Source of the DNA: Myxococcales bacterium | GTDB lineage: Bacteria > Myxococcota_A > UBA9042 | Length of the DNA stretch: 64,000 nt | Assembly: GCA_009692425.1 (NCBI GenBank) | Contig: SHZF01000005.1 | Location: 62,001-126,000, forward strand | Direction: 5' to 3' | Shown here: positions 44,937-63,994 of the stretch, one piece after another | Position numbering within the stretch: the stretch's first letter is position 1 | Layout: each line of letters opens with the position of its first letter | The notes under the pieces: generated by a model | Told to the model about the DNA's origin: nothing | Database searches by the model: none | Seen by the model: the letters and a program-made list of their open reading frames with translations, nothing else | Position numbers and translations under genes: made by a program

Positions 44937-47132
44937 CTATTTGCAGAGCTTCGGCACCTGGGGGTACGCCGGGGTCACCAGGTTGCCCTTGGCATCTGCG
45001 CCCTTGCATGGCGTGATCTTGTTCGGATTCCAAGAGATGCGCGCGACGCACCACAGGTCGCCCGTCTTCATCGCCGGTCCGGTCTTGTCGAGATCGGCGA
45101 CGGACTTGTGATCGAGGTACACGCGCACCCGCGGCGTCGACAATCCGTACTGGTTGTCCGAGGCGTAGTAGACGCCGACGAAGTACGCGAGCCCGGGCTC
45201 GGGTGCCTTGATGTTCAGGTTCTCTGGCCCCCAGCCGTCGTAGTCGTCGAGATCGAGGCGCGGATCGTCTTCTGGGTCGCTCAGGTCGCCCCACTTGGGC
45301 AGTTTGTTGAACCAGTAGGCGTCGTCGCACGGCGCGAACCACGGGTCGGGCTCGCCGTTCTTGTCAAAATCCGGTTGGCCGGCTGCCTTGATCGCGTTGG
45401 GGTGCGCGAGGTGCAGATCGACATCGGACCCGGCCCAGGCGCCCGTCTTGTCCTTGCCGGTATCCGTCTTATTGGGGTCGGTGGGCGTGTCCCACGTCAG
45501 TTCGACGTGGATGAGATCGTCAGCGATCACGTTCAGTTCGAAGACGGCCGGCTTGCACGCCGAGACCTTCGAATCGTCGGTCACGTCGAGCGAGAACGTG
45601 TACTTTCCCGAAATATTCGGCTGGAACTTCACGACCTTCGCCTGCGCCGACGGCGCAAACGTCGAAAACGATCCCTGCGGCTGCGCGACCGACCACTTCC
45701 ACGTGTCGATGACATGCCCCTGCGGCGCGCTCGAACAGGCGGCGTCGAGCGTCAGCGGGGTCTGCGGCACCACGTCCTTGCCCGCCAGTACCTTCTGGCC
45801 GTTCGCGTCGTTCTTCAGCGTCAGGCATGCGACCGGGCACGCGGCCTGCACGCCCTCGCCCGACAGCGCGATGTCCGTGGTGACCCCGGCATTCCACGGT
45901 ACGACGATCTTGCCGGTCGCCTTGGTCCCCACCTGGCTCGGCGAGAACGTCACGTAGAACGTACACTTGGCTGTCGGTGGCAGCACCAGCGGCTTCTGCA
46001 CGGTCGGCGCCGCGCCGCCGTCGGTGACGCAGCCGAACGGCTCCACCTGAAAGCCCGCGGTCGAGCCAGGCTCAAGGCCCAGCCCGGTCAGCGCGACGTC
46101 TTCGGTGCCGCACGACTCCAGCGAGGCCTGCAACTTCGCCTGGGATCCGACGGGCACGGCACCGAACTCGACCGACAGCGCCGAGGCCTTCAGGCACGGG
46201 CCCGTCGCGTTCGCCTTCAACGGAACCTGCAGCGTGCCGATGCCGGCGTCGTTCGTCGTGATCCGCAAGGTTGCCACCAGCTTTTCCTGCTCCGCGATCG
46301 GCAACAGGCGCACGGTCATCTCCAGCGTTTCGTTGGCGGCCAGGGCGAGCTTCGGCGTACCGGCAAACGGCTTCGTCGGCGTCACGGTCGGGCCGCCCGC
46401 GACCTGGACCTCGACCGGCATCGACGGCGCGACGATCTCGAGGGAATCGAACACGAGTTGGCCAGTGCCGGCGTTCGTACACTTGAACGGCGCCTCGGCT
46501 CCCTGGTTCTTGGCGACCTTGCCGAAGTCGACCGAGGCCGGGACGCACACAAGCTTCGGGCTGCCGATCTGAACCTTGAATTCCAGCGTGCGCGGCGCGT
46601 CCTTCCACAGCGGATCGCCCTCGACCGTCACGTCGAGGCGTGCCTTGCGGGGGGTCGCCGCCGTGCCGCGCGTGTACGTCACGGTCAGGGCCGTAGACGC
46701 CACGGAATCCTTGGGCTTGCACGCCGCGTCGAGGCCTGCCGGCACCAGCACCGGCCACGTCGCTTCGGCGCACGGCTTGCCGCCGGGCCCCTTGCAGGTG
46801 AACTGCGGACCCGTGCTCACGACCTTGCCGTCGGCGTCGGTTTCGACCAGCGCCACCGACTTTACCGTGAGTGGCCTGGCCGAGATCGGCGGCGCCGTAT
46901 TCGACAGGACCAAAACGAATTCCCGCACACTGCCCGTCGCCATCGGCGCGCCGTCGATGACCACGCTCGCGCTGGCCGCCGCCCCAGCCGGGTCGCGCAC
47001 TTCGAGCTTTGCCGCCGTCTCGATGCGCGTCTTGCCGCTCGGGCAACCGGCGACGCTGCCGGTGCCGGGCTCTTCGGTCGTGCATGCGCTGGCGAACGCC
47101 ACCGCAACGAGACAGCTACTGATCGCGTTCAC
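44937..47132 (-). CDS. Paralogous envelope lipoprotein, copy 3
   Basis: This 731-aa lipoprotein is the last of three tandem relatives. The GTG start overlaps the stop of copy 2 (GTGA). A short signal ends in 'FASAC' with Cys17. The body has Hydin/ASPM-like immunoglobulin domains of the 'choice-of-anchor' kind (about residues 170-480; 'VDFGKVAKNQGAEAPFKCTN', 'VEFGAVPVGSQAKLQASLES') and a PKD-like domain. The C-terminal 220 residues are a conserved unit with 'IHVELTWDTPTD', 'GSDVDLHLAHP', 'FAPCDDAYWFN', 'LDLDDYDGWGPENLN' and 'YFVGVYYASDNQYG'. The acidic motifs suggest a calcium-binding, DUF2135-like beta domain. Cell-surface or periplasmic scaffold is likely; function unknown. Confidence 0.75.
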   Translation of the reverse strand: MNAISSCLVAVAFASACTTEEPGTGSVAGCPSGKTRIETAAKLEVRDPAGAAASASVVIDGAPMATGSVREFVLVLSNTAPPISARPLTVKSVALVETDADGKVVSTGPQFTCKGPGGKPCAEATWPVLVPAGLDAACKPKDSVASTALTVTYTRGTAATPRKARLDVTVEGDPLWKDAPRTLEFKVQIGSPKLVCVPASVDFGKVAKNQGAEAPFKCTNAGTGQLVFDSLEIVAPSMPVEVQVAGGPTVTPTKPFAGTPKLALAANETLEMTVRLLPIAEQEKLVATLRITTNDAGIGTLQVPLKANATGPCLKASALSVEFGAVPVGSQAKLQASLESCGTEDVALTGLGLEPGSTAGFQVEPFGCVTDGGAAPTVQKPLVLPPTAKCTFYVTFSPSQVGTKATGKIVVPWNAGVTTDIALSGEGVQAACPVACLTLKNDANGQKVLAGKDVVPQTPLTLDAACSSAPQGHVIDTWKWSVAQPQGSFSTFAPSAQAKVVKFQPNISGKYTFSLDVTDDSKVSACKPAVFELNVIADDLIHVELTWDTPTDPNKTDTGKDKTGAWAGSDVDLHLAHPNAIKAAGQPDFDKNGEPDPWFAPCDDAYWFNKLPKWGDLSDPEDDPRLDLDDYDGWGPENLNIKAPEPGLAYFVGVYYASDNQYGLSTPRVRVYLDHKSVADLDKTGPAMKTGDLWCVARISWNPNKITPCKGADAKGNLVTPAYPQVPKLCK

Positions 47133-49534
47133 TTGCACTTGCCACCCAGCACGGCCGAGAACTTCGCCTTGTAGTCGGGGGTCACCTTGCCGTTCGTGGC
47201 GGGCGAGCCGTCCCACTCCACCAGCGTACCGGCCGGCCACTCGATGCGCTTGGTCCACCACAGGTCGCACTGGTTCATCTTGGCTTGCAGCGTCGCCTTG
47301 AGCGCGCCGAGGATGTAGATGCGCACGGTCGCGGTCGAAAACCCAAACGTTTCCGAATCCCAGTAGTGGACGCCGACGCCGTACGTCTGCCCGGCCTCGG
47401 GCGTCTTGAGGTTCAGGTTCTCCGGGCCCCAGCCGTCGGTGTCGTCGAGGTCGAGGCCCGGGTTCGTGTCCGGGTCGACCGCACTGCCCCACGTCGGCAG
47501 CGCGTTGTACCAGAACGTGTCGTACTGCGGATGGAACCACGGGTCCGGCTTGCCGTCCTTGTCCAGGTCCTGCTGGCAGGCGCACGGCTTCCCTGCGCAC
47601 ATTTCCGCAGGATCCTTGCAGAGTTTCGCCAGCGCCGCCTTCGGGTGGACGAAATGCAGGTCGAGGTCGGCCCCCTTGTGCGGCCCCGTGTCGGTCTTGT
47701 CCGCGTCTCCCGGCGTGTCCCACAGCAACTCGACGTGGATGCCGCCGTCGGGCACTACCAGCAACTCCTGCTGCGCGACCTGGCACGCAGACTTGTCCGC
47801 GTCGTCGACGACGTCGAGTTGGAAGCGGTAGACGCCCGCCACGTTGACTTGGACCTGTTCCTTGGCCGGCTTGCCCGGCGACGTCACCATCGTCTTGGCG
47901 CCGAATTCCACATTGGCGACGCCGGCATTGGGGAAGAAGCCCAACCCCTCGGCCCCCTCGGGCGACTTCAGCAGCGACCACTTGTACGCCTTGATCTGGT
48001 GGCCGGCGGCGGCAAAGGATTGGTCGGCCTTCAGGTGGATCACCGTCTGCGGCACGACCTCCTCGCCTTCGATGAGCGTGATGATGGCCGTCGGACACGC
48101 CGTCGCCGTGCCCCACACACGCAGCTTGACCTGCTTGTCGGGCGCCACCGAGTTGTCCGCGATCTTGAGAGCGCCGGTGTACGGCTGCGCCTTGCCGTCC
48201 TGGCCCTTGTTCTCCGACTCCGGCGTCGCCACGAGCTTGACGATCTCCGAGCCGTTGACCTTGATGCGGATCGGATTGCTGGCCGTCACACCCTTGCCGC
48301 CGAGTGCCGCGATGCCGTCGGTGGCCACCGCAAACACGCCGGCTGCGTCGTCGGCGATCTGCAGGGCGCTGACCTCGACTTCAGCCGAGCCGCAATTCTT
48401 GAGCGTGACGTCGCGGGCCGCGGGCTTGCCGACCGCCTGAAAACCGAAGTTCAGCTCAGGCGACGGCGTCACCTTCAGGCACGCGGCATTCTGGTTCGCT
48501 TTCAGCGTGATCGTCTTCTTCTGCTGATCGGCGCTGAACACGTCGAGCGTCGTCAGGTGCGGGCTCGGGTCGATCGCCGCGAACGACACCTTGCCACTGA
48601 CCGCCTTGTCCTTCGCGATCGTGATCTTGGGGTCCAGATCGAGCGCGGCGCCGCCCTTGTAGGTCTTGCCCTCGAGTTCGAGCGACCACGGTTTCTGGTC
48701 GTTCTTGGCCAGTTCGATGCGCGTCACCACGAGGTCCGCGTCGCCTTGGTTCTGGATCTTGAACGGCTCATCGCGCACGCCGTTGACCTTGACGGTGCCG
48801 AAATCAAGTTCGGCGGGCAGCACCGCGAGTTTCGGGTTGCCCGTGGCTGTCACAAAGCGCAGGCGGTAGGGCGTCGGCGTCGGATTCTGCCCGCCCGTCG
48901 TGTAGGCCTTGTCGCCAGTGGTGTGCAGCACGAGCGTCACCGTGCGCGGCGCGGCATCCGCCGGCTTCTTGAAGCGGACCTTGAGTTGCTGCTGGGCGGC
49001 CTTTTTCGTCCCCGTCGCGCAATCCGGGTCGAAGCCGGGCGGGATCAGCGTCGGCCACGCCACCTTGTCGCACGGGACCTCGGCGCCGTCCTGCTGTGCG
49101 ATGCACGTGAACGGGTTGCCGGCGTCTGCCGTGTTGGCCGGCGGTGTGAACGCGAGTTCGAGCCCCGTGATCACCAATTCCTTGGCAGCCGCGGCGTTGG
49201 CGACGTTGAGGATGTCGACCGTGACGTCGAGCGTCTGGCCCGCGGTCAGCGAGCCCCCTGTCATCTCGACGCTGCCGTCATGGGCGCGCACCTTGTCTGC
49301 GGCGCGCACTTCGAGCTTCGCGTTGCGATCGATGCCGGGGCCCGCCGCACCGCTACCGCACTTGGCCGGCAGGGCCGTTCCGCCGTCCGCCAGGGCGCCC
49401 GCGTCCGCGCCGCCCGAACCCTCGCCGCATCCGAGCGCCAGCATGGCTACCAGCACGGCGACCAGCACAGCCACCAGTACGCCCGGCGACCGTGCGGGTC
49501 GAGCCGCGCAGCAGCGTCCTCGTCGTTCGTTCAT
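47129..49534 (-). CDS. Paralogous envelope lipoprotein, copy 2
   Basis: This 801-aa lipoprotein has a strongly hydrophobic signal ending in 'MLALGC' (Cys36). An N-terminal beta domain ('NAKLEVRAADKVRAHDG') and two Hydin-type domains ('AELDFGTVKVNGVRDEPFKI', 'LNFGFQAVGKPAARDVTLKN') come next, then a PKD-like region and the shared C-terminal unit. That unit reads 'IHVELLWDTPGDADKTDTGP', 'GADLDLHFVHP', 'LDLDDTDGWGPENLN' and 'YGVGVHYWDSETFGFS'. A Cys-rich insertion ('CKDPAEMCAGKPCACQQ') sits inside the C-terminal unit, absent from the other copies. AGGAAA precedes the ATG at 49534. It lies 50 bases after copy 1 and overlaps copy 3, so all three form one operon. Confidence 0.75.
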   Translation of the reverse strand: MNERRGRCCAARPARSPGVLVAVLVAVLVAMLALGCGEGSGGADAGALADGGTALPAKCGSGAAGPGIDRNAKLEVRAADKVRAHDGSVEMTGGSLTAGQTLDVTVDILNVANAAAAKELVITGLELAFTPPANTADAGNPFTCIAQQDGAEVPCDKVAWPTLIPPGFDPDCATGTKKAAQQQLKVRFKKPADAAPRTVTLVLHTTGDKAYTTGGQNPTPTPYRLRFVTATGNPKLAVLPAELDFGTVKVNGVRDEPFKIQNQGDADLVVTRIELAKNDQKPWSLELEGKTYKGGAALDLDPKITIAKDKAVSGKVSFAAIDPSPHLTTLDVFSADQQKKTITLKANQNAACLKVTPSPELNFGFQAVGKPAARDVTLKNCGSAEVEVSALQIADDAAGVFAVATDGIAALGGKGVTASNPIRIKVNGSEIVKLVATPESENKGQDGKAQPYTGALKIADNSVAPDKQVKLRVWGTATACPTAIITLIEGEEVVPQTVIHLKADQSFAAAGHQIKAYKWSLLKSPEGAEGLGFFPNAGVANVEFGAKTMVTSPGKPAKEQVQVNVAGVYRFQLDVVDDADKSACQVAQQELLVVPDGGIHVELLWDTPGDADKTDTGPHKGADLDLHFVHPKAALAKLCKDPAEMCAGKPCACQQDLDKDGKPDPWFHPQYDTFWYNALPTWGSAVDPDTNPGLDLDDTDGWGPENLNLKTPEAGQTYGVGVHYWDSETFGFSTATVRIYILGALKATLQAKMNQCDLWWTKRIEWPAGTLVEWDGSPATNGKVTPDYKAKFSAVLGGKCK

Positions 49535-49583
49535 GTGCGTTTCCTGGCCGGTTGCTCGATCCTGCCGAGGGCTTGATCGTGCA

Positions 49584-52001
49584 CTAGGGCTTGACCTTGC
49601 ACTGGGCCGGCTTGGCGCCCGCCGCCTGGGCTGCGAACGCCTTGTTCTCGTAGCACTTCGTGATGCAGAAGTCGCCCGACGGCTTCCACATCTGGCCGCA
49701 ACCGGCCTTGCCCGCACAGTACTTCGGATCGTTCGCGACGTTGCCCGCGCACACTGCCCCCTTGGTCTGGTAGCACTGCGTGAAGACCGGCAACTTCGAG
49801 CCCTTCAGCTCATTGGGCCAGTTGATCTTGCCGACGTACCACATGTCGAGAAGGTCCATCGGCACCTTCGTGATCTGCAGGGCGAGCGTGCCTTCGAGGT
49901 AGATCGACACCGTCGCGTACGACAGGCCGTAGCCGTGGTCGTGCCAGTAATGTACGCCGACCGGGTACGCGATCGGGCTTGCCACGTCGCCTTCGGGCGA
50001 CTCGAGGTTCAGGTTCTCCGGGCCGGCGCCGTCGGTATCGTCGAGGTCGAGGCTGGGGTCGTCCGGCGTGGCCGGGTTGGAACTGCCCCAGTTCGGGTTC
50101 GGATTGAACCAGAACGTGTCGAACGGATTGTTGAACCACGGGTCCGGCGTGCTGTCGCAGTCGATGTCGGGGCCGGACGCCAGCGGGTGTGAGAAGTGCA
50201 AGTCCATGTCCGCGCCGGCGGCCGGGCCGGAGTCGGTCTCGTCCGGGTCCGAAGGCGTCGCCCACAGCAGTTCAACGTGGATCGCGTTGTTCGGCACCAC
50301 CAGAACATCGATGCAGGCCGGCTGGCACGACTTCGCGTCGTTCTGGTCCCACACCTCGAGGCAGAACTTGTAGTCGCCCGACGCGTTCGCCAGAAAGGTC
50401 GGGTTCGCAAACGTCGCATTCGGGATGAACGGCTGGTTCGAGCCTGCCGGCTGCTTCGCCGTCCACTTGTACTTCTTGATGGTCCCGCCACCGGGCGCGA
50501 CCGACTGGTCGCCCTTGAGGTGGAGTTGCGTCTGCGGGATGACCTCCTCGCCTTCCTTGACCGACACCTTGGCGAGCGGGCAGGTCGATTTCACGCCCGC
50601 GCCCTTGGCCTGCACCTTGCGCACTTCAAAAGCGTTCGAGGTGACGCCGATCATCGCGATGTCGAATTCGCCGTCCTTCGAGATGTCTTCAGGCACGTAC
50701 TTCACGGTGAAGGTGGCGTCCTTGCCGATGCCGATCTTGATCGGCTTGTCTTTCGACGGCCCCTTGATGTCGACGTCGGGATAGCCCTTCTTCGTCTCGA
50801 CGTAATCTAAGGCGAACTCGTTCGAGGTCGAGCCCTCCTTGAGGAATTCGATCTTGTCGACGATCAGATCGACCGAGCCGCAGTTCTTGATCTGCACGTT
50901 GCGCACTTCGGAGTTCTGCAGCAGCACGCCGCCGAACGACACCTCCTTGTCCGGCTTGAGCAGGATGCACGGCACCGCCGTGTTCGCGCGCATGCTGACC
51001 GTCGTGCCCGTCTGGGCCGCCGGGTCGTTCGAATACAGCACGATCTGGCCTTCCTTCTTCTTGTCGTCTTCCGGCTTGAACCCGACAGAGAACGTGCGCT
51101 GCTTGCCCGGTTCGATGTCAAGCGGCGGGTCGAACGTGACGGCCGCGTCGGGCTTGTACACGGTGCCGCCGCCTGCACCGTCGAGCGTCACCGAGAACGT
51201 CGGTGCCGCCGACACCCACTTGAATCCCGCAATCGACAACAGCGCGTCGCCGAGATTGCGCACCGCGAACACTTCTTTGCCATCGGACTTCGGCGGCACG
51301 TACGGGAAATCGACGGTGTCCGGCGCGACTGCGATCTTCGGCTTGCCCTGTACGGTCTTGAACGTCACCTTGAACTCGCCGTTCGTGCTGACCAGCGCCG
51401 GTACGTTGTTGGCGACCCGGATCCGCAGCACGGCTTCGCGGTCCTTGTCGTCGAATCGCGTGAAACGCAACAGGAACGTCTCCTTGGCCGCGCGCCCCGA
51501 CGCCTCGTTGGCGTACTGGCCTGGCACCACCTTCTTCCACTTGCCGTCCATGTCTTCGCACTTCACGGTGGCGTCTGCATTCCAGCACTCCAGCGCGTGG
51601 GCGGTGTCTTCCTTGGGCGACTTTGCCGTGTAGTCGAGCCGCACGCTGAGCAGCACGAGGTCGGCCGCCGACAGGGCCGAGATCGTGTTCAGGATTGTGA
51701 ACGCGGTGTCCTTCGCCGTCTTGACGGAGCCGACCTCGACCGCGATGACCGAATCCTTCTTGAGGACCTTCTCGGTGCCCGGATCGCGCACTTCGAGCGC
51801 GGCGCTGCACTCGATCAGGGTCGAACCGCTGATGCAGGTTTTCACGCTTCCCGTTGCGCCGCCCACCGTGCCGCCACCAGTCACTCCGCCGGAGCCCGTG
51901 CTGCCGCCTGCGCTGATCGCGCCGGGCGTTTCTGCCGCGCAGGCCGAGAGGTGGGCGGCGGAGGCGCAGAGCAGCAGGGTGTAGAGGGGGCGGCGGAGCA
52001 T
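49584..52001 (-). CDS. Paralogous envelope lipoprotein, copy 1
   Basis: This 805-aa lipoprotein is first in the leftward operon. The signal ends in 'AHLSAC' (Cys21), followed by a Gly/Thr/Ser-rich linker. It has the same plan as copies 2 and 3: N-terminal beta domain, Hydin-type domains ('VDFPYVPPKSDGKEVFAVRN', 'VSFGGVLLQNSEVRNVQIKN'), a PKD-like domain ('IKKYKWTAKQPAGSNQPF') and the conserved C-terminal unit ('IHVELLWATPSDPDETDSGP', 'LDLDDTDGAGPENLN', 'YPVGVHYWHDHGYG'). It carries an extra Cys-rich C-terminal tail with about eight Cys. GAGG precedes the ATG. A good promoter lies 120-148 bases upstream, divergent from the vWA/barrel/TPR operon, so the two sets may be made together. Confidence 0.75.
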   Translation of the reverse strand: MLRRPLYTLLLCASAAHLSACAAETPGAISAGGSTGSGGVTGGGTVGGATGSVKTCISGSTLIECSAALEVRDPGTEKVLKKDSVIAVEVGSVKTAKDTAFTILNTISALSAADLVLLSVRLDYTAKSPKEDTAHALECWNADATVKCEDMDGKWKKVVPGQYANEASGRAAKETFLLRFTRFDDKDREAVLRIRVANNVPALVSTNGEFKVTFKTVQGKPKIAVAPDTVDFPYVPPKSDGKEVFAVRNLGDALLSIAGFKWVSAAPTFSVTLDGAGGGTVYKPDAAVTFDPPLDIEPGKQRTFSVGFKPEDDKKKEGQIVLYSNDPAAQTGTTVSMRANTAVPCILLKPDKEVSFGGVLLQNSEVRNVQIKNCGSVDLIVDKIEFLKEGSTSNEFALDYVETKKGYPDVDIKGPSKDKPIKIGIGKDATFTVKYVPEDISKDGEFDIAMIGVTSNAFEVRKVQAKGAGVKSTCPLAKVSVKEGEEVIPQTQLHLKGDQSVAPGGGTIKKYKWTAKQPAGSNQPFIPNATFANPTFLANASGDYKFCLEVWDQNDAKSCQPACIDVLVVPNNAIHVELLWATPSDPDETDSGPAAGADMDLHFSHPLASGPDIDCDSTPDPWFNNPFDTFWFNPNPNWGSSNPATPDDPSLDLDDTDGAGPENLNLESPEGDVASPIAYPVGVHYWHDHGYGLSYATVSIYLEGTLALQITKVPMDLLDMWYVGKINWPNELKGSKLPVFTQCYQTKGAVCAGNVANDPKYCAGKAGCGQMWKPSGDFCITKCYENKAFAAQAAGAKPAQCKVKP

Positions 52002-52120
52002 GGCGACCTCACGTTCAGATTCAGGGGCGGGCCCTCGGATTACGGGAACGGACACTTAGCTTTTCAGCGACGCTCACTCAGTTCAGGGTCGGGTCCGGTC
52101 ACGCGAGCCCCAAACAGATC

Positions 52121-52149
52121 ACTGTAGTAGCGAGGGCAGGACGCGTCAA
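52121..52149 (-). promoter_or_regulatory. Promoter of the lipoprotein triplet
   Basis: On the minus strand TTGACG (52149-52144), exactly 17 bases and TACAGT (52126-52121) form a strong sigma-70-type promoter. The leader to the ATG at 52001 is about 110 bases. Confidence 0.65.
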
Positions 52150-52213
52150 CCAATAGCACCGCGAACCGACAGCGGCGAGGGGCCCGCAGCCCTCGCCAGC
52201 GCAAGGGTTCTGC

Positions 52214-52243
52214 TTGACTTGGCGACGACGGCGAAGGAAGAAT
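52214..52243 (+). promoter_or_regulatory. Candidate promoter of the vWA/barrel/TPR operon
   Basis: TTGACT (52214-52219) with AAGAAT at an 18-base spacing lies about 84 bases before the ATG of the vWA gene. The -35 is good and the -10 poor. The hairpin at 52174-52197 lies just upstream. Confidence 0.3.
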
Positions 52244-52326
52244 CGCCCCCTCGCGCGGACGGTCGACTTCCGGCCGATCGGCGCGGAACCCCGGGTTTTC
52301 CGATGTGCCCGCAGGGGGTTGTGCTC

Positions 52327-54411
52327 ATGCAAGTGCCTTCGATCGCGTCTCGTCCGCCCGCGCTGCCGGCCCCGGTTGGCCGGCGCCGCGCACTGTGGCT
52401 GACCAGATCGCTACTGTGGCTGACCAGATCGCTACTGTGGCTGCCCAACTCGCGGCTCTGGCTGCCCAACTCGCGGCTCTGGCTGCCCAGCTCGCTGCTG
52501 CTGGCCCTGGCGCTCGGGGTCTGGACGATCTCCGGTGGCCTCGCGTCGTGCGATTCGACCGCGAAGTTCACGGTGCCGGACCGCCAGTTTGCGAGCATCC
52601 AAGTGGTGTCGGGATTCCTGGCGCACTATGACTCCCAGACGCGCAAGACGACGCGGGTGTGCGGCCTGCCGCGCGAGGGAGAGGCCGACGTTGCGCCCAA
52701 TGCGATCGAGCTCACCGTCAACTTCTTGTCGAGCGAACTGACCGGGCGCATGAACCTATGCAAAGAAGCCGGGGAAAACGATTTCGATCGCTCCATCAAG
52801 GAGGGTGAACTCGTCGACCTCAAGCGCGTCAAGGCGACGGTGCCGGGCCAGAGCGTCTCGGCAAAGATGTTCACGTTGGAAGCAAAGTGCCTGTCACCGC
52901 GCGTGTCCCAAGAACAAGACTGCGCGTCCGCCTTTGCCAAGCAGGCGCTCGTCGGCTCCGAGATCCGCTACGTGAAGCACGCCGATCGCTGCGACCCGAT
53001 CCGGCCCGACACCGCGATTGACGTCGCCCTCGTAGTCGACAACAGCGGGTCGATCTCGGGCCTCGTCGATGCAAACACGAAACTGGAAGAGCAGGAGTCG
53101 GTGCTCGGTGCCAACATCCCCAACGACCGCACCGAAGTGATGTCGGACCCGTTCCGCACGCGCATCAAGGCCGCGACGAACTTCCTCGATCTGCTGAATC
53201 CGCGCGACAAGGTGATCACGTATTTCTTCGACGAGACGGGCTGGAACATCGCCTGCAGCGACGCCTTCGTGTGCTGCCCGACTTCCCTGCCGGACGGCCA
53301 GGCGTGCGACGGCAAGAAGTGCGCCGGGCCCCACGACAAGTCGACGTGCGCGGCCGGCGAGTCGTGCCGGTCGGACGTGCGCTGCACCAGCAAGGATGCT
53401 TGCCAGACCGACGATTTCGTGACGCTGCCAAACAAGGCTGAAGGTTCGCTCGACAGCCAGTCGAAGCGCTGCTTCGGCAAGGTCGGCGAGAAGGGCCACT
53501 GGCACAAGAATGGTCTGGAATTGAAGGTCAAGAATGCCGCAACCGGGCGCGCCAGCGTGTGGCAGACGATGCACGAGGCCTACACGTTCCTGACCGGCAC
53601 GGCCGCCGACGGCAACGCAGGCGAACCGGCCAGCCGCGCCAAGCACATCGTGCTGCTCGCGGACGGCCCCGACACGTGCCTGGAATCCGACGACTTCAAC
53701 TGGACCGACCTGGCAGGCAAGAACGGCAAGTGCCGACTCCAGTGCAACCTGCCCGACCTCGACAAGGCGCGCTACGAGAAGCTGCTGGAGCGCATCCAGA
53801 CCGACAAGGCCAACGTGGTGGTGCACGTCGTGCAGTTCCAGTCGGTCGGCTACATGAATCCCGACCCGCGCATGCAGGAGATCGCCTGCCGCACCGGGGG
53901 CACGTACCAGTTCGTCAACACGCGCGAGTCCCCGACGCAGCAGGCGTCGTCTTTCGAGCCGATCGTGACGGCGATGAACCGGGTGCGCTTCACTTTGTCG
54001 GGCAGTTGGCGCATCACCTTCACGGCCGACGTCTTAGGCCAAGCCAAGGTGGGCGCGCCCGACAACCAGTTGCCAGTCACGCTCGGCGCGATGGTCGCGC
54101 TCGATGGGTCGTTGCGCTTCAAGAACGCCGAGTTCGCGAGCCTGCAGAGCGTCTACGAGACGCAGCAACGCGACTGGGAGTTCAGCTTTTCGGGCAAGGA
54201 AGACCGCCGCATGTTGATGCGCCGGGCGTGCCTCGACGAGAAGGACTGCGGCGGCGGCGACGGCGAGTGCGGCAAGAACCGCTGCACGAAGGCCGGCTTG
54301 TGCGAGGCGAAAGTGGCGCCGAACCAACTCGTGTGCTCGAAGGGCGCCAGCACCAAGTGCTGCAAGGGCGAGTGCAAGACCGGCGCGTGCACCGACGCCT
54401 GCAAGAAATGA
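52327..54411 (+). CDS. vWA-domain lipoprotein with repeat-containing signal
   Basis: This 694-aa protein begins at an ATG with a G-rich ribosome-binding site; further upstream ATGs are in frame. The N-terminal 75 residues carry five tandem heptapeptides LWL-[TP]-x-S-x and a hydrophobic signal ending in the lipobox 'GGLASC' (Cys75). A von Willebrand A domain (about residues 230-540) has the MIDAS 'DVALVVDNSGSIS', 'KHIVLLADGPDTC' and is interrupted by a Cys-rich insertion ('CCPTSLPDGQACDGKKC'). A Cys-rich tail 'CGGGDGECGKNRC' ends it. The stop overlaps an ATG (ATGA) but the better start of the next gene is 33 bases on. It heads the barrel/TPR operon and may be a metal-dependent adhesion or docking lipoprotein. 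Confidence 0.75.
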   Translation: MQVPSIASRPPALPAPVGRRRALWLTRSLLWLTRSLLWLPNSRLWLPNSRLWLPSSLLLALALGVWTISGGLASCDSTAKFTVPDRQFASIQVVSGFLAHYDSQTRKTTRVCGLPREGEADVAPNAIELTVNFLSSELTGRMNLCKEAGENDFDRSIKEGELVDLKRVKATVPGQSVSAKMFTLEAKCLSPRVSQEQDCASAFAKQALVGSEIRYVKHADRCDPIRPDTAIDVALVVDNSGSISGLVDANTKLEEQESVLGANIPNDRTEVMSDPFRTRIKAATNFLDLLNPRDKVITYFFDETGWNIACSDAFVCCPTSLPDGQACDGKKCAGPHDKSTCAAGESCRSDVRCTSKDACQTDDFVTLPNKAEGSLDSQSKRCFGKVGEKGHWHKNGLELKVKNAATGRASVWQTMHEAYTFLTGTAADGNAGEPASRAKHIVLLADGPDTCLESDDFNWTDLAGKNGKCRLQCNLPDLDKARYEKLLERIQTDKANVVVHVVQFQSVGYMNPDPRMQEIACRTGGTYQFVNTRESPTQQASSFEPIVTAMNRVRFTLSGSWRITFTADVLGQAKVGAPDNQLPVTLGAMVALDGSLRFKNAEFASLQSVYETQQRDWEFSFSGKEDRRMLMRRACLDEKDCGGGDGECGKNRCTKAGLCEAKVAPNQLVCSKGASTKCCKGECKTGACTDACKK
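52393..52497 (+). repeat. 21-bp tandem repeat in a signal peptide
   Basis: Five 21-base units: two identical (ctgtggctgaccagatcgct, then a), then three with ctgcccaactcg or a close variant. They encode LWLTRSL, LWLTRSL, LWLPNSR, LWLPNSR and LWLPSSL just before the hydrophobic core of the vWA lipoprotein signal. Copy changes would keep the frame but alter the length of the signal. Confidence 0.9.
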
Positions 54412-54443
54412 TGGGCACCGGCGTGCGGCCAGGGAGACTCGGA

Positions 54444-55253: not shown

Positions 55254-55278
55254 CGGCCCGGCCCGGAGGAGACCCGAG

Positions 55279-56265: not shown

Positions 56266-56300
56266 CCCCCAGTCGCCCCTGTCCCCTGCCCGGAGGACCG

Positions 56301-58271
56301 ATGTTCCGTCTCCATCTGAACCGCCCCCCGCGAGGCTTGCTTGCGGTCGGCATGTTGGCCGTGCTGGCCTTGGCGGGTCCCGCTGCAGCGCTCACCAAGG
56401 AGGAGATCATCACGCTCGTCGGTCTCGAAATCCCGGACGACCAGATCATCAAGAAAATCCAGAAAGACAGCTCTGTCTATGACCTGCAGCCCGCCGACGT
56501 GCTCGACCTGAAGAAGAAGGGGGTGTCGGAGAAGATCATCCGCTACATGGTCCAGACCAAGAAGGCGGGCGTGGTGGCGGCGGCGGCGACGTCGGGGGCC
56601 AAGAAAGAGGAGAAGAAGCGCGAACTTTCGGCAGCGGAGCAGGCGGCCGAAGAGGCCAAGCTCAAGGAGGAGTCGGCCAAGCTGCTGCGCGATCAACAGG
56701 AACGCGAGGAGCGCCAGCGCAACGCCTTTGCCGACCGCGTCTTGCAAGCGGGCCAGAAGCTCGCGGCGGACGGCGAGTGGGTCAAGGCGATTCAGGTGTT
56801 CACGAAATTCGTCCAAGAGGGCGTCGGCGGCATTCCGTATGCGCCTGACAGCGATCAGGCCTACACGGCGAAGTACGGCATGGCGAACGCCTTGGCACGC
56901 GCGGGGCTGCACCAGTCGGCGGCGAACCTGCTGCGCGAGGTCGTCAGCGCCGGGCCGGAAAAAGTGTTTTTCGTTCCGGCATTCAACCAGTTGCGCGACC
57001 TGCGCCGCAAGATCAACTACCGCCCGCCTGAGTTGGAAGACCTGACACGGTTCTCGGTTGTGAACACGGACGCGGCGTTCCAGTCGGGCTTCTACTACTT
57101 CGTCGGCGAGTTCTTGCACGACTTCGGCCTGTCCACCGACGCCAAGCCGTACCTCGAGAAGGTGACGGGCGATTCGGCCGACTTTCCGCGCGCGCAGTAC
57201 CTGTTGGGCCTGATCGCGTTTCAGGACGACACGCTGTCGACCCAGCAGAAGGTGGCGGATTCGTCGATCGCATTCCAGAAGGCGGTCGTCAGCGGCGAAA
57301 AGCTGCCCGATGGCGCGCCGATCGTCGATCTCGGCTACCTGAGCCTGGCGCGACTGGCCTACGAGTACCAGCAATATGACGCGGCGATCTATTACTACCG
57401 CAAGATTTCCAAGACCTCTCCCAAGCTCGCCAACGCGTTCTACGAGGCGGGCTGGACCTATTTCTTGAAGGGCGACATCAGTCGCTCGCTCGGCACCTTT
57501 CACGCACTGCACAGCCCGTACTTCGCCCACCATTTCTACCCTGAACTGTGGATTCTCGAAGCGGCGCTGTACGTAAACACCTGTCGGGTCGACCAAGCCG
57601 AACTTGCGCTCAAGATGTTCGACGACCATGTGCTGGTACTGGCGCCGCCGCTGCGCGACTTCTTGAAGCGCAACAAGCGGCCCGAGGACTTCTACGCAGC
57701 GCTGCTCGAAACCGTGAACAACAAGAGTGCCGCGAGCCTGCCCCGCAAACTGGTGAGTCCGGTGCTGGAGAATGTCGAATTCTACAACCTGCACCAGACC
57801 ATCAAGCAGATCGAGCGCGAAGAGGTCCAGGTCAAGGCGAACCTGCAGGCGCTCGGCGCATTTGGCCAGGACCTGTTGGGCCGTCTGGGCCAGTTGCGCG
57901 TCGAACGGATCAGCGAGGCTGGCGTCGTCGTGCAGAAGACGCTGCGGGCCCTGCAGAAGGAACTCGACAACCTCATGGACAAGGAAGCGGAATTGCGTAT
58001 CGACCTGCAGGAGGCCGTGCTGCAGCGACTCGACAAGGAGATGCTCGACACGCAGGCCCAAAAGAAGCAGGACGCCCAGGCGGCGGCCGCGCGCCAGGGC
58101 ACCATCGCCATCGCCGGTTCGGACGCGATGGTGTGGCCGTTCGAGGGCGAGTTCTGGAAGGACGAGATCGGCGCATACCGTTCGTATCTGACAAGCCAAT
58201 GCAAGGAAGAGGAAGCGGAGGGTCAGGGCAGCGTCGTTACGCAGCCCTCAGCCAGCGAGGATGGCAAATAG
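56301..58271 (+). CDS. Periplasmic TPR protein, GltC-like
   Basis: This 656-aa protein has a signal peptide ('LLAVGMLAVLALAGPAAA') directly followed by a small helical motif ('LTKEEIITLVGLEIPDDQII') repeated in many uncharacterised envelope proteins. A charged coiled-coil (about residues 100-145) and TPR repeats (about 145-430; 'VFTKFVQEGVGGIPYAPDSD', 'SLARLAYEYQQYDAAIYYYR', 'AFYEAGWTYFLKGDISRSLG') come next. A second coiled-coil region (about 500-600) ends in 'VWPFEGEFWKDEIGAYR'. Length and position after two barrels match M. xanthus GltC (about 670 aa). GGAGGA precedes the ATG. It probably bridges the barrels to periplasmic partners. Confidence 0.7.
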   Translation: MFRLHLNRPPRGLLAVGMLAVLALAGPAAALTKEEIITLVGLEIPDDQIIKKIQKDSSVYDLQPADVLDLKKKGVSEKIIRYMVQTKKAGVVAAAATSGAKKEEKKRELSAAEQAAEEAKLKEESAKLLRDQQEREERQRNAFADRVLQAGQKLAADGEWVKAIQVFTKFVQEGVGGIPYAPDSDQAYTAKYGMANALARAGLHQSAANLLREVVSAGPEKVFFVPAFNQLRDLRRKINYRPPELEDLTRFSVVNTDAAFQSGFYYFVGEFLHDFGLSTDAKPYLEKVTGDSADFPRAQYLLGLIAFQDDTLSTQQKVADSSIAFQKAVVSGEKLPDGAPIVDLGYLSLARLAYEYQQYDAAIYYYRKISKTSPKLANAFYEAGWTYFLKGDISRSLGTFHALHSPYFAHHFYPELWILEAALYVNTCRVDQAELALKMFDDHVLVLAPPLRDFLKRNKRPEDFYAALLETVNNKSAASLPRKLVSPVLENVEFYNLHQTIKQIEREEVQVKANLQALGAFGQDLLGRLGQLRVERISEAGVVVQKTLRALQKELDNLMDKEAELRIDLQEAVLQRLDKEMLDTQAQKKQDAQAAAARQGTIAIAGSDAMVWPFEGEFWKDEIGAYRSYLTSQCKEEEAEGQGSVVTQPSASEDGK

Positions 58272-58364
58272 GGCGAGTCCCGCTGGCCGCCCCGCTCTGC
58301 ACCGCCGACCCGGGCCCACAAGCGCCGCTCGCACGAGCGCACGCCCGGACGAAGGACACTGAAG

Positions 58365-61300
58365 ATGAATCACAATCTCCTGCGCATCCGGTTGGGCGCG
58401 CGCCTGCTCTGTGGCGGTGTGGTCGCGCTGGCGTGGCCGACGTGGGCCGTGGCCCAGAGCCTGGACGACGTCGAAGCGGGCGCCGCCACGAAGAAGGTCG
58501 AGAAGAAGGCTTCGCTCATCGCAGAGGAGAAGCCGGCCGAGGTGCGCAAGAAGAAAGAGGACGACGACGCGCTCAAGAAGGGCGAATTCAACTACGAGCG
58601 CCTTGAAGAACTGGGCTTCTCGAAAGACCAGCAGCGCATCCAGTTCGACAAGTCGAAGACGCGCCGGTCGATGATCAAGACGATGGCGGACCTGATCGAG
58701 CGCAAGCCGCCCGACAATGCCGCCGACATCTACTTTCGTCTGGCGGAGACGTGGTGGGACGAGACGCATTACGTTTATCTGCTCGACCGTGCCGAATACA
58801 ACAAGAAGATGACCGAGTTCGACAAGGGCGTGCTGAAGGAAAAGCCCGTCGAGCCCGTCGAGAACTACCAGCGCTCGATCACCTACTACGAGAAGGTGCT
58901 CCAGCAGTACCCGAACTACGGGCGCATCGACGAAGTGCTGTTCCGGCTCGGCAAGGCGGCGCTCCAGCAGGGCAAGGCGCTCGGCGACAAGGTGTTGAGC
59001 GTCAAGGGCGTGCAATACCTCAACCAACTCGTGCAGAAGCACCAGAACTCCAAGTACATCCCGCAAACCCACCTGGCGCTCGCCGAGCATTTCTTCGAGG
59101 CGAACAACCTGACGCTCGCCAAGATGAACTACGAGCGCATCACGCAGAACTTCAAGACCGCGCCGATGTTCAACTACGCGCTCTACAAGCTTGGCTGGGT
59201 CTACTACAACCTGCGGGAATTCCGACGTACGATCGAGACCTTCCAGGAGGTCGTGAAAGTCATCGGCAAGGAGCGCATGGCTGGCAAGATCGAGTTCCGC
59301 GACCAGGCGCTCAAGGACCTCGTCCAAGCGTTCGGCGAACTCGATCGCGGCTGGCCCGAGGCTGAGGAGTACTTCGTCAAAGAAGAGGGCGCCGGTCCCG
59401 CGTTCGACCGCATGCTCAAGCTGGCCGACATCTACATGTCGACGGACAAGGACGACAACGCGATCGAACTGTACACGCACTTCATCGACGGCAAGCCGAC
59501 CGACAAGCGCTGCATCGACTGGCACGACCAGATCATCACGGTGCGTAAGAAGATCGCGAGCTTCGCGGACCTCGAAGGCGCCGTGCGCAAGTTCCTGGCA
59601 TTCACCGACGAGCGCACGAGTCCGTGGGTGGCATCCAATCGCAACAATGCGGAGTACATGGACAAACAGCAGAAGATGGGCGAGACGTTGCTGCTGTTCG
59701 TCGCGAACAAGTACCACCAGGACGCGCAGAAGTCCGAGGAGGAGAACAAGGACGCCAACGCCACGCGTGACGCCTACGCCAAGGCTGCGGCCGACTATCG
59801 CGAGTTCGTGCGGCGCTACCCGCGCTCGGGCAAGGCCTACATCGTGCAGTTCTACTTCGCCGAAATCCTGTTCGACCAGTTGAAGGATTTCGCCGGAGCC
59901 AACTCCGCCTACAAGAAGGTGATCGAACTCGACAAGGGCGGCGATTACGTCGAAGACGCGGCGTTGGGCGTCATCTACTCGGTCGAAGAACTCATGCGCA
60001 AGACGCGGGCCTCTTACAAAGACGCCAAGTGGGTCGATGACCCGACGGCGGCGACGCTGCTGCCCGAGATGGTGAGCGAGAAGACCGAGTTCAAGAAGTT
60101 CCGGGTCAAGGAGAAGGTCGAACTGACCGAAGAGGAGATCAAGGCCGCACAAGTGCCCAAGAAAGCGCAAGAACTGCACCCGCTGGAGCAGGACTACGTG
60201 ATGGCCGCCGACAAGTACGTCGAGTTGATGTTCGAGGCCCAGAAGCGCTGCAGGGAGAAGAAGAAGGACTGCGACAAGGGCAAGAAAGTTCCCGAAATCA
60301 TGTATCTGGCATCGACGACCTACTACGACCGCGGCCAGTATCCCAAGGCGATCGAGCGGCTCGAAAAGACCTTCCAGTACGACGAGAAGAACAAGGTCGC
60401 CGAGATCTCAGTCAAGACCATGATCGACATCTACGCTCGCCACAAGGACTGGGTGAACATCGAGACGTGGGCGCGCAAGATGCTGGCGCGGCCGAAGCTC
60501 GAAGTGTTCGATTCCAAGGACCTGCGCAAGTACGTCGCGGTTTCCGTGGCCGAGCAGGCGGTCGAACTGGCCGAGCGCAAGGACTTCGACGGCGCGCACA
60601 AGAAGTACGACACCATCTTGACCGAGTTCCGCAAGGACGAGCCCGAATTGGCAGCGACCGCGCTGTACAACAAGGCGGCCATCTACGAGTTGCAGAAGGA
60701 AGACGTCAAGGCGATCACGACGTACGAGCGCGTCGTCAAAGACTTCCCCAAGGCGAAGATCGCTCCCGAGGCGTCGTTCAACATCGGCATGATCTACGAG
60801 TCGATGACGCAGTTCAAAGAGGCGGCCGACGCGTTCCTGACCATGACGAAGTTCCGCGACAATGCCGACGCGGCGCAAGCGCTCATCAACGCGGGCCAGA
60901 TTCTCGGCGCGCTGCAGCAGCACAAGGAGGCCGCCGCCGCGTATGACAAGTTCATCACGGTGGCCGGCAACCTGAAGGGCGATGACGAGGGGACCAAGCG
61001 CTTGAAGGCGTTGATCCCAGACGCGGAGATGGAAAAGGGCCACATCTTGGAGCGCATGGGTTCGGCCGACGGCGCCAAGCTGGCAGCAGGCGTCTACGGC
61101 AGCGTGCTGACGAAGTACCCGGCGCGACCGGACCTCGCCGTCGAAGCGCTCGGGCGCCGCGCCGAGCAACTGCGGATGGCCGACCCGGCGAAGAACCGCG
61201 CCGAGGTCGTCAAGGCGGCGACGGCAGCGCTCAAGGCTTTTGACACCGAAAAGGGCAAGGCAGGGCGCGCGGCCTACTTCGCGGCGCAGGCGTCGTTTCA

Positions 61301-61946
61301 CCGCGCGGAGTACGACTTCGACGATTTCGACAAGCTGACGCTGAAGGACGTCAAGAAGATGACCGGCCTGCTGGCGATGCTGCAGAAGAAGGCGGAGTCG
61401 CTCAAGAAGGCGGAGCTGGGCTACTTCACGGTCATCGACGCCGCGTCCGCCGGCAACGGACGGGCCTACGCCGCGGCAGCCGCGTTCAAGATCGGCCTGC
61501 TCTACTTCAAGTTCAAGGAAGACCTGTTCAACGCCCCGACCCCGCCCCAGATCGCCGGCAACCAGGAGCTGGAAGAAGCCTACCACCGCGAGATCGAAAA
61601 AATCGCCGTGCCGATCGAGGAGCAGTCGCTGTCGGCGCTCGGCAACGCGATCAACATGGCGCACAACCTCGGTGTCTACAACAAGTGGTCGAAGGAGGCG
61701 GGCGAGTATGCGGCGAAGGTCAATCCGAACCAGTATCCGACCGTCGAGACGACGACCGAGCGGCGCGAACTGCCCAAGGCGGTGACTGCGGTGTCGGCGA
61801 CGAAGCTGACCGATGCCGCGACGTCCGCCGCCTTCATCACGCAGGTGCGGCGCGGCAAGTTCACCGTGTCGTACAAGCCGAAGTCGATCGAGTCGAAGCC
61901 GAAAGAAGCGCCGAAGACTGCGCCCAAGGCCCCAACCTCCCTGTGA
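58365..61946 (+). CDS. Large periplasmic TPR protein, GltD/AgmU-like
   Basis: This 1193-aa protein has a signal peptide ('LCGGVVALAWPTWAVAQ'), a Lys/Glu-rich coiled stretch (about residues 45-75) and a very long TPR array ('IDEVLFRLGKAALQQGKALG', 'PMFNYALYKLGWVYYNLREF', 'ATALYNKAAIYELQKEDVKA', 'APEASFNIGMIYESMTQFKE'). Its C-terminal 60 residues are Lys/Pro-rich. M. xanthus AgmU/GltD is a periplasmic protein of about 1200 residues made of TPRs, so size and architecture agree. In this operon it follows the GltC-like gene after 93 bases. The role by analogy is a scaffold between inner- and outer-membrane parts of a motility or transport machine. The homology assignment is inference. Confidence 0.65.
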   Translation: MNHNLLRIRLGARLLCGGVVALAWPTWAVAQSLDDVEAGAATKKVEKKASLIAEEKPAEVRKKKEDDDALKKGEFNYERLEELGFSKDQQRIQFDKSKTRRSMIKTMADLIERKPPDNAADIYFRLAETWWDETHYVYLLDRAEYNKKMTEFDKGVLKEKPVEPVENYQRSITYYEKVLQQYPNYGRIDEVLFRLGKAALQQGKALGDKVLSVKGVQYLNQLVQKHQNSKYIPQTHLALAEHFFEANNLTLAKMNYERITQNFKTAPMFNYALYKLGWVYYNLREFRRTIETFQEVVKVIGKERMAGKIEFRDQALKDLVQAFGELDRGWPEAEEYFVKEEGAGPAFDRMLKLADIYMSTDKDDNAIELYTHFIDGKPTDKRCIDWHDQIITVRKKIASFADLEGAVRKFLAFTDERTSPWVASNRNNAEYMDKQQKMGETLLLFVANKYHQDAQKSEEENKDANATRDAYAKAAADYREFVRRYPRSGKAYIVQFYFAEILFDQLKDFAGANSAYKKVIELDKGGDYVEDAALGVIYSVEELMRKTRASYKDAKWVDDPTAATLLPEMVSEKTEFKKFRVKEKVELTEEEIKAAQVPKKAQELHPLEQDYVMAADKYVELMFEAQKRCREKKKDCDKGKKVPEIMYLASTTYYDRGQYPKAIERLEKTFQYDEKNKVAEISVKTMIDIYARHKDWVNIETWARKMLARPKLEVFDSKDLRKYVAVSVAEQAVELAERKDFDGAHKKYDTILTEFRKDEPELAATALYNKAAIYELQKEDVKAITTYERVVKDFPKAKIAPEASFNIGMIYESMTQFKEAADAFLTMTKFRDNADAAQALINAGQILGALQQHKEAAAAYDKFITVAGNLKGDDEGTKRLKALIPDAEMEKGHILERMGSADGAKLAAGVYGSVLTKYPARPDLAVEALGRRAEQLRMADPAKNRAEVVKAATAALKAFDTEKGKAGRAAYFAAQASFHRAEYDFDDFDKLTLKDVKKMTGLLAMLQKKAESLKKAELGYFTVIDAASAGNGRAYAAAAAFKIGLLYFKFKEDLFNAPTPPQIAGNQELEEAYHREIEKIAVPIEEQSLSALGNAINMAHNLGVYNKWSKEAGEYAAKVNPNQYPTVETTTERRELPKAVTAVSATKLTDAATSAAFITQVRRGKFTVSYKPKSIESKPKEAPKTAPKAPTSL

Positions 61947-61960
61947 TCGGAGCGTCCCCC

Positions 61961-63994
61961 ATGATTCGCAACGAACCCGCCGCGCCCGCACGCTCGATGC
62001 TGCGCGGGCTCGCCTCTGCGGCCAGCGTGCTCGCCGTGTCAGTGTCGGCCCAGCCGGTGTGCGCCCAAGAAGCCGAGTACCTGCAAGGCATCGCCGACAA
62101 GGCCCAGGATGCGTTCCGCCAGGGCCTCGAAGCCGCCCTGCGCAAACTGCCGAAGTGCAGCCCACAGCGCCTGCTCGAGAACGGCGAGTGCTGCAACCTC
62201 GGCGAGGCCTCGCTCGGCAAGACCTGCGTCACGATCGCGCCGCAGCAGTGCGCGGCCGCCGTGTACGATGCGCCCGAAACCTGCAACCTGAACCGGTGCG
62301 CGAAGTTCGTGAAGGAAATCCATGAGGACGAAAAGGACAAGGACGGCAAGCCCGTGCCCGAACTCGACGACGCCGGCCAGCCCACGGGCAAGAACCGCGT
62401 CAAGACCGTGGCCGTGCCGTGCAACCCGTGGCCCGATGGCAAGCGCGACCTCACTTGCGAACTCGACACGTACGAGTGCAAGCCCGACGAACTCGGCGGC
62501 CGCACCGATCGCTGGTGCGCCGACTGGGTCAAGGAAATCCCGCTGCCCCCGCAGGTCGATGCCGCCGGCAAGCCCGTCGTCGGCGGGCCCGTGTCGGTGA
62601 TCGTGCGCTGCAAGCCCGGCTCGGATGACTGCTTGCTCGACATGCGCGAGTGCACGGGCGAGGAACTCAAAAGCGGCCGTTCCGATGGGGCCGGGCCGTG
62701 CAAGATTGGAGAATACATCGACGCCGCGAGCGGCAAATGCACGACATCGAAGTGCCCGACGCACTGCATGACGGCTGACGGACGCTGCGCGAAGTGCGGG
62801 CCCGACTACCAGGGCGCGGCAGAAGCATTCCGCGCGGCGGTCAAGGAAGACGACCGCTTCTATGAAGGCTATTTCAACCTCGGCATGTCGTACGAGCGGC
62901 TGGGTAAATACGCCGACGCGATCGCCGCCTACGAGGAGGCCAAGGGCATCGAACCGAAGGACGACCGCGAGCGCAACCTGCAACTGTCGGCGCAGGCCTA
63001 CATCGCGCGCGGCTGGCTGGCCGAGGCGCGCCGTCTGGTCGAAGCCGGCGAGAAGGGCAAGGCGAAGGAATTGCGCGAGCGGGCCCGCAGCGTGTGCGAG
63101 TCGATCCGCGGCCAGGACCCGGACAACTCGATGGCGAACGTGGCCCTTGCGCTGTACTGGGTCGATGAGTCCGAACAGCCGAATCACTTGGAACTGGCCG
63201 AGACGTTCGTGCGCCAGGCGCTGCGCAACAACCGGGAGGACACGATCGCGCTGAACATCCGCGGCCTGTTGAACCTGAAAACGAACAAGAACGAGATCGC
63301 GCGCTGGATCCTGGAAGAGAAGGTGCTCGCCATCGATCCGGCCAACCCCGAGGCGCTCGCCAACCTGGGCCTGGCCTACGTGCGGCTCGGCGACCTGCCC
63401 AAGGCGGTGGCGGCGTTCGAGCGCGGCGTGCGGCTGAACCCGAATGCCACGTCGGCGCGCCTGAACCTCGGCGCCATCTACCTGGAGTACCTGAACTACC
63501 GCGGCGCGGAGCAGCAGTACAAGGTGGCGCTCCAACTGGAACCGCAGAACCTCGAAGCACTGACGGGCTACGCGCTCTCGCTCGAGGGGCGCCGCGAACC
63601 GAAGAAGGCTGCGGAACTGTACGAGAAGGTGCTGGCCAAGGCGCCGGAGCGCCACGCGATTCTGTGCCGGCTGGCGATCATCTACGGCAACAAGCCGTTC
63701 AACGACGACGACAAGGCGCTGACGTTGTGGAAGCGCTACCTCAAGGAATCGGGCCTGCCGCCCGCCGACGCCGCCAAGGCCGAACTCGACAACCTGCGCG
63801 TAGAACTGAAGAAGATGGAGAAGCCACCGAAGAAGGCTCCGCCCGGCTGGGCGCAGCAGAAGTTGGACCTCACGGCGAAGGAGGTGGCGCAGACGACGCT
63901 GTGGAAGTCCGTCCTCGCGATCCAGAGCCGCATCGACGCGATCGAAAAGGGCCGCGAACTGCAGCAGCAGGCGAACCAGCCGGCGCCGAAGTAG
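61961..63994 (+). CDS. Exported TPR protein with Cys-rich N-part, GltE/AglT-like
   Basis: This 677-aa protein has a signal peptide ('LASAASVLAVSVSAQPVCAQ'). A Cys-rich region (about residues 50-285) has some 20 Cys ('NGECCNLGEASLGKTC', 'TSKCPTHCMTADGRCAKC'). Eight or so TPRs fill about 285-600 ('YEGYFNLGMSYERLGKYADA', 'PEALANLGLAYVRLGDLPKA', 'TSARLNLGAIYLEYLNYRGA'). GGAGCG precedes the ATG, 14 bases after the previous stop, so it is in the same operon. In M. xanthus AgmU/GltD is followed by the TPR protein AglT/GltE; this gene takes that place. The large Cys-rich insert is not something I know from AglT. The gene is complete and ends six bases from the window edge. Confidence 0.65.
   Translation: MIRNEPAAPARSMLRGLASAASVLAVSVSAQPVCAQEAEYLQGIADKAQDAFRQGLEAALRKLPKCSPQRLLENGECCNLGEASLGKTCVTIAPQQCAAAVYDAPETCNLNRCAKFVKEIHEDEKDKDGKPVPELDDAGQPTGKNRVKTVAVPCNPWPDGKRDLTCELDTYECKPDELGGRTDRWCADWVKEIPLPPQVDAAGKPVVGGPVSVIVRCKPGSDDCLLDMRECTGEELKSGRSDGAGPCKIGEYIDAASGKCTTSKCPTHCMTADGRCAKCGPDYQGAAEAFRAAVKEDDRFYEGYFNLGMSYERLGKYADAIAAYEEAKGIEPKDDRERNLQLSAQAYIARGWLAEARRLVEAGEKGKAKELRERARSVCESIRGQDPDNSMANVALALYWVDESEQPNHLELAETFVRQALRNNREDTIALNIRGLLNLKTNKNEIARWILEEKVLAIDPANPEALANLGLAYVRLGDLPKAVAAFERGVRLNPNATSARLNLGAIYLEYLNYRGAEQQYKVALQLEPQNLEALTGYALSLEGRREPKKAAELYEKVLAKAPERHAILCRLAIIYGNKPFNDDDKALTLWKRYLKESGLPPADAAKAELDNLRVELKKMEKPPKKAPPGWAQQKLDLTAKEVAQTTLWKSVLAIQSRIDAIEKGRELQQQANQPAPK

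Follow-up and report, generated by a model that had tools for sequence, protein, structure and literature searches.

The window, a stretch of 64,000 nucleotides (C38:62001-126000 of a 4.94-Mb draft genome with a completeness of 96%), carries a cassette of envelope genes that on balance probably belongs to a motor-driven surface-transport machine of the Agl-Glt/Nfs family, of a separate lineage, independent of MglA and furnished with adhesins of its own. Glt and Nfs are two specialised forms of a single transporter driven by Agl, serving gliding and the spore coat, respectively (PMC3858216).

Gene content of the locus

All nine genes of the original prediction, namely a vWA lipoprotein, two barrels, three TPR proteins and a divergent lipoprotein triplet, were confirmed in place and size with a strong coding signal, the lengths given for the TPR proteins being exact (Table 1). 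Since neighbouring genes on the + strand are separated by just 14-93 bp, the stretch from the vWA gene to the GltE-like gene is likely an operon; on the opposite arm, the genes of lipoproteins A and B overlap by 4 bp, and the intergenic region from which the two arms diverge is presumed to be the promoter region. The DNA to the right of 64 kb, where further Glt and motor genes had been anticipated, was inspected on the same contig (L007; window coordinate = L007 + 63000). The cassette continues there over 64115-72418 (extended coordinates) with GltF, lipoprotein D, a CglD-like protein and lipoprotein F; the motor genes lie instead on contig C132. GltI, GltH and GltK were not recognised beside the locus.

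Table 1. Features of the cassette in window coordinates, extended on the same contig beyond the window
Feature	Position	Strand	Evidence
Lipoprotein A, 731 aa	44937..47132	-	NF012200 E=7e-15, PF22352 E=1e-7
Lipoprotein B, 801 aa	47129..49534	-	NF012200 E=2e-16; 34% identity to lipoprotein C
Lipoprotein C, 805 aa, lipobox LSAC	49584..52001	-	NF012200 and PF22352 matches
Divergent intergenic region, 325 bp	52002..52326	.	Gene coordinates
vWA lipoprotein, 694 aa, 31 Cys	52327..54411	+	Lipobox LASC, Asp at +2, MIDAS D238xSGS
Barrel 1, GltA-like, 269 aa	54444..55253	+	TIGR04565 E=1.4e-21; M. xanthus GltA E=1e-12
Barrel 2, GltB-like, 328 aa	55279..56265	+	TIGR04565 E=6.6e-19; M. xanthus GltB E=4e-16
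GltC-like TPR protein, 656 aa	56301..58271	+	NF033756 E=2.6e-58, residues 87-636
GltD-like TPR protein, 1193 aa	58365..61946	+	Profile A3; own clade in tree
GltE-like TPR protein, 677 aa	61961..63994	+	NF033758 E=1.4e-19; sits between GltD and GltF
GltF-like exported protein, 89 aa	64115-64384 (extended)		NF033764 (CglF/GltF) E=7e-10
Lipoprotein D, triplet type	64555-66888 (extended)		
CglD-like vWA protein, 1123 aa	66956-70327 (extended)		NF052240 1.7e-14, NF033765 1.6e-9
Lipoprotein F	70388-72418 (extended)		

Two further genes follow the cassette. Directly after lipoprotein F lies a divergent arginine deiminase gene (L007:9422-10795), which is there in six genomes of the family, and downstream of the cassette a protein with three DsbA-like domains is encoded (L007:12169-14040; 75169-77040 extended), found near the cassette in four other family genomes. 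The latter might assist the Cys-rich vWA, GltE and CglD-like proteins.

Barrels and the GltC-D-E-F core

The two barrels hit the family of myxobacterial barrels (TIGR04565), and in BLASTP searches their best M. xanthus matches are GltA for barrel 1 and GltB for barrel 2, NfsA/B matching them at an E value of about 0.01. The barrel order had been predicted as GltB-GltA; it is instead A-like then B-like, so that the whole order A-B-C-D-E-F is the same as in nfs. The GltC-like protein scores 198 bits over the whole length of its model and does not reach the equivalog cut-off of 450 bits, which just one GltC surpassed in a search of the phylum; it matches M. xanthus GltC at 3e-37 and NfsC at 2.5e-32. 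The GltD profile A3 scores 624 bits on M. xanthus GltD, 544 on the G4-type protein and 543 on NfsD, and the window protein is two residues longer than the 1191 aa of M. xanthus GltD. For the GltE-like protein, which has a Cys-rich N-terminal extension with 23 Cys, generic TPR models score about as well as NF033758. The GltF-like match stays under the equivalog cut-off of 90 bits; its length is also that of M. xanthus GltF (PMC3169522). Kinship with Glt proteins, as originally claimed, is borne out by the GltC, GltE, GltF/CglF and barrel matches, and the Glt homology of the cassette is, judged by sequence, real.

In M. xanthus AM003, whose clusters were assigned from gene order and the sizes in PMC3169522, the corresponding loci are gltK-B-A-C (L163), gltD-E (L238) and nfsA-H (L240/L241), while a further cluster beside mglBA (L239) was taken as G4 and another (L242) as G5 by elimination. 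The window cassette resembles the Agl-Glt system in its GltA/B barrels, GltC, GltD, GltE and GltF by sequence and size, but its genes stand in one block and its GltD lineage is separate. With nfsA-H it has the single cluster and gene order in common, although its barrels are nearer GltA/B and G and H are absent, lipoproteins following GltF instead. The GltC-D-E core is shared with G4 (MXAN_1922 region) and G5 (MXAN_1327 region), from which the cassette differs as another lineage with barrels, GltF and adhesins; the genome's own G4-type homologue is found on C132. As originally noted, these genes are joined here, but this is not unusual, since joined clusters were already known in nfsA-H, in Anaeromyxobacter (homologues of G1 and G2) and in Bdellovibrio (Bd0828-0838) (PMC3169522, PMC3858216).

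GltD and GltC trees

In the GltD tree, the window sequence, its family, the other families of the class and three genomes of a group denoted f19, tentatively taken to be Bradymonadia, are united in one clade (support 100/100). M. xanthus GltD is placed elsewhere, together with joined clusters of other Myxococcota and of a MAG labelled Bdellovibrio. The AU test rejected a union of the window clade and the clade of gliding GltD proteins (p=0.0033) but not one of the window clade and NfsD, a long branch (p=0.08). The GltC tree agrees with the GltD tree; because it suffers from long branches (NfsC, the G5-type sequence and the genome's own sequence on C77), the GltD tree is preferred. Since the GltD clade is separate and its union with the gliding clade is rejected, the cassette is, going by these trees, of a descent different from that of the Glt machine of M. 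xanthus. Of the proposal of an ancestral or variant Glt machine, the ancestral part is not supported: both trees are unrooted and speak for neither 'ancestral' nor 'derived'.

The joined A-B-C-D-E-F order and a grouping with NfsD, which the test did not reject, would also fit a machine of the Nfs kind that lays a coat of polymer or protein over the surface, such as a spore or cyst coat or a sheath, rather than serving motility. This is improbable in our judgement, as the NfsA/B barrels match so poorly, the recovered nfs operon has neither the vWA nor the Ig lipoproteins of the window cassette, no polymer export genes were recognised beside the locus, and NfsC shares with NfsD the problem of a long branch.

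The vWA lipoprotein at the head of the operon

Searches of NCBIfam and Pfam give the window vWA protein no name: some of its relatives match Pfam VWA models with E values between 1e-4 and 1e-5, against 0.16 for the window protein itself. Of the MIDAS motif D-x-S-G-S, the Asp and the first Ser are invariant in 18 relatives, as is a set of Cys. Where the +2 residue of these relatives can be read, Asp predominates (14 by our own count), three having Asn and one Gln. The lipoproteins encoded beside the vWA protein carry Ser, Gly, Ala or Thr at this position, with CglD of G022 as the sole exception, so that its sorting may differ from theirs. Asp at +2 causes inner-membrane retention of lipoproteins in E. 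coli and serves a separate export route in Klebsiella PulA, and Lys at +2 marks inner-membrane lipoproteins in M. xanthus (PMC3222651). A structure predicted from the single sequence reached a pLDDT of 37 and was left unused.

vWA lipoproteins are already known in gliding, namely CglB and CglD (PMC13104615, PMC4488436), both of which M. xanthus encodes away from the glt clusters (for CglB: PMC13104615, PMC4488436). The involvement of vWA lipoproteins is thus a likeness to Agl-Glt, but homology of the window protein to CglB was not detectable: against M. xanthus, the vWA profile A2 gave matches to the MIDAS stretch only (best E=0.013, none full-length), with CglB absent as a control.

Extra copies of the window-type vWA protein occur in family genomes off the contig that carries the GltD match (G016:C100, G020:C68, G013:C131, G004:C155, two on G019:C559, and G006:C595). 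In addition, a protein of about 470 aa adjoining gltK and divergent from gltB-A-C weakly resembles the window vWA protein in Archangium violaceum (L169:5751-7151, E=4e-4) and Myxococcus eversor (L174:5707-7128, E=6e-3).

Ig/PKD lipoproteins and the CglD-like protein

In profile searches, lipoproteins A, B, C and D each showed a PKD domain alongside Ig domains of the choice-of-anchor-D/HYDIN kind. All four are paralogues, A, B and D having 32-38% identity to C, and the family profile A4 matched HYDIN in the PDB at E=6e-23. Lipoprotein A, which has syntenic orthologues in the family, combines HYDIN/ASH-type Ig domains and the PKD domain with a conserved DLDLH...GPENLN C-terminal domain; a structure of the lipoprotein C-terminus, predicted from the three window paralogues, had usable confidence for the PKD domain only. 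The triplet proteins, which the original prediction had called new, hence turn out to have a known fold. Outside the cassette, a further triplet-type lipoprotein with 42% identity to lipoprotein C is encoded at L009:5879-8032 (G000:C105).

In the CglD-like protein, five choice-of-anchor-D/HYDIN-type Ig repeats are accompanied by a C-terminal vWA domain, and this domain matches both the model of the MIDAS adhesins of the Bdellovibrio Bd0875 type (NF052240) and that of CglD (NF033765). It differs from both in its HYDIN-type Ig domains and in its position inside a Glt-type cassette. The Ig/PKD lipoproteins are additions that set the cassette apart from Agl-Glt, and lipoproteins of adhesive appearance are what is distinctive about it.

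Two vWA proteins and five other lipoproteins make up most of the cassette, and in Bdellovibrio the MIDAS lipoprotein Bd0875 has a part in the interaction of predator and prey (PMC11003981). Both observations, as well as the lack of linkage to motor genes described below, could be taken to indicate a static adhesion or outer-membrane-tethering complex without a motor, in which the Ig and vWA lipoproteins would attach the cell to prey, sediment or sister cells. We regard this as very unlikely, given that the GltC, D, E and F proteins stay with the barrels as in the motor-driven Glt and Nfs machines and that the genome retains an AglRQS-like motor and GltG-like genes.

Conservation of the cassette

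About ten further family genomes show the same gene order and orientation, in some of them broken by contig ends, with the lipoproteins on one arm and vWA-A-B-C-D-E-F-lipoprotein D-CglD-lipoprotein F on the other; co-occurrence of the triplet with the locus, suggested as a check, is seen in that the cassette including its lipoproteins is syntenic across the family. Other families of the class keep vWA-barrel-C-D-E-F, G022 and G036 having a lipoprotein and CglD on the divergent side. In 35 of 45 class genomes, no more than 4.4 kb separates the vWA gene from the GltD-like gene; in most of the others GltD lies near a contig end. This proximity and the recurrence of the order in the family argue that the arrangement is not due to chance. 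A weak vWA match is also found just upstream of the cluster in the f19 genomes G063, G071 and G079, and in the named loci L145, L147 and L149 a vWA protein likewise stands ahead of the barrel; a vWA gene at the head is therefore a recurrent feature and not a local accident. The joined vWA-barrel-C-D-E-F clusters of L147 and L149 are nearly alike and come from MAGs labelled Deltaproteobacteria and Bdellovibrio sp., respectively, so one of the two labels may be wrong.

Motor genes and absence of MglA

TolQ-TolR-TolR motor genes are located at C132:116493-118925 (L049:8494-10926). The TolQ protein shares 48% identity with the M. xanthus AglR candidate (E=4e-57), ahead of 38% for the next best match. 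The operon of this candidate has the sizes 245/158/194 as compared with 245/162/194 reported for AglR/Q/S (PMC3169522). The TolR pair follows the order Q and S and retains the membrane Asp; proton conduction depends on D28 of AglQ (PMC3858216). Two GltG-like genes in tandem (C132:84538-88544; L097:4539-8545) match NF033760 at E=3e-25 and 9e-22, and the search for GltJ returned partial matches only, on several contigs (best E=2e-10). The window genome thus resembles M. xanthus in having AglRQS-like and GltG-like genes and is unlike it in having no secure GltJ. Both Glt matches and motor genes, on which the original prediction had been made to depend, were found in this genome. The GltG-like proteins have 591 and 592 aa and an AgmX/PglI tail, their N-terminal part being unaligned with the FHA region of the GltG model.

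Two other Glt-like sets are present in the genome. One is a second GltC-D-E-like set on C132 (L050:10965-19617, about 151-159.6 kb), whose GltD groups with the M. xanthus cluster beside mglBA (G4-type) in a genome that has no MglA match. The other is a GltC/GltD-like pair of the barrel-less 'core' type (G000:C77:19251-24982), which adjoins a gene resembling UDP-glucose dehydrogenase and whose GltC outscores the window GltC on NF033756.

The polarity GTPase MglA has been described as central to the regulation of gliding in M. xanthus (PMC9481161). Queried with the M. xanthus protein, the window genome gave no match, and among 90 relatives searched, none of the 52 class genomes had a match of at least 40% identity. 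Canonical MglA (67-83% identity) was found in 27 of 38 relatives outside the class, six f19 genomes among them, and these positive genomes of the same search serve as its control. The class, in contrast to M. xanthus, thus keeps the module, and the window genome also the motor, without the M. xanthus polarity switch. Nfs operates without an MreB track (PMC3858216), and such a mode of working would suit the MglA-less context of the class, which is a further point for the Nfs-like reading.

Gliding by this machine is possible. A true gliding machine as in M. xanthus, in which the vWA protein would be a CglB-like focal adhesin and another regulator would replace MglA, accords with barrels nearer GltA/B than NfsA/B, with two MIDAS vWA lipoproteins in the cassette, with the AglRQS-like motor and with the f19 genomes, which have the same barrel-C-D-E-F set and do possess MglA. 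Canonical MglA, however, is absent from the 52 class genomes searched, the AU test rejects joining the separate GltD clade to that of Glt (p=0.003), GltJ is not secure, and no CglB homologue emerged from the profile search, which makes this reading a rather unlikely one.

A surface-transport machine with its own adhesins

The reading we favour, a surface-transport machine of a separate lineage, draws on the matches to the GltC, GltF/CglF, CglD and MIDAS adhesin models, on the similarity of the barrels and GltD to their M. xanthus counterparts, on the C132 motor with its AglR-Q-S order and the two GltG-like genes, and on the conservation of the cassette as a unit, Glt and Nfs both being Agl-driven transporters. 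The cassette would constitute that half of a proton-driven Agl-Glt/Nfs-type machine which lies in the outer membrane and periplasm. Its two small GltA/B-like barrels would form the outer-membrane platform and the GltC-, GltD-, GltE- and GltF-like proteins would bridge the periplasm, the complex being pushed along by the AglRQS-like motor and GltG-like proteins encoded elsewhere. The vWA and Ig/PKD lipoproteins would be the cargo, presumably exposed adhesive surface parts dragged around the cell, and the outcome could be attachment, surface movement or the spreading of a coat, without an MglA polarity switch. It must be taken into account, however, that the motor and GltG-like genes are unlinked to the cassette, so that their partnership with it is inferred, that the motor could have another Glt-like set (on C132 or C77) as its partner and that the vWA protein, with Asp or Asn at +2, may not reach the surface. 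We tentatively entertain a further functional class, neither gliding nor sporulation: an MglA-independent transporter with operon-borne adhesins, in which the Cys-rich vWA protein, kept in the inner membrane by Asp at +2, might serve in the periplasm as a clutch or sensor of force between the motor and the outer-membrane barrels.

In the literature examined, no description was found of this lineage, its class-wide coupling to a vWA lipoprotein, its Ig/PKD lipoprotein set or its MglA-less context. The locus ties vWA lipoproteins genetically to the GltA/B-C-D-E-F core, and a class that has the outer-membrane module packaged with adhesins but lacks MglA offers a natural test of the Glt parts, separating those for force-driven surface transport from those for directed gliding.
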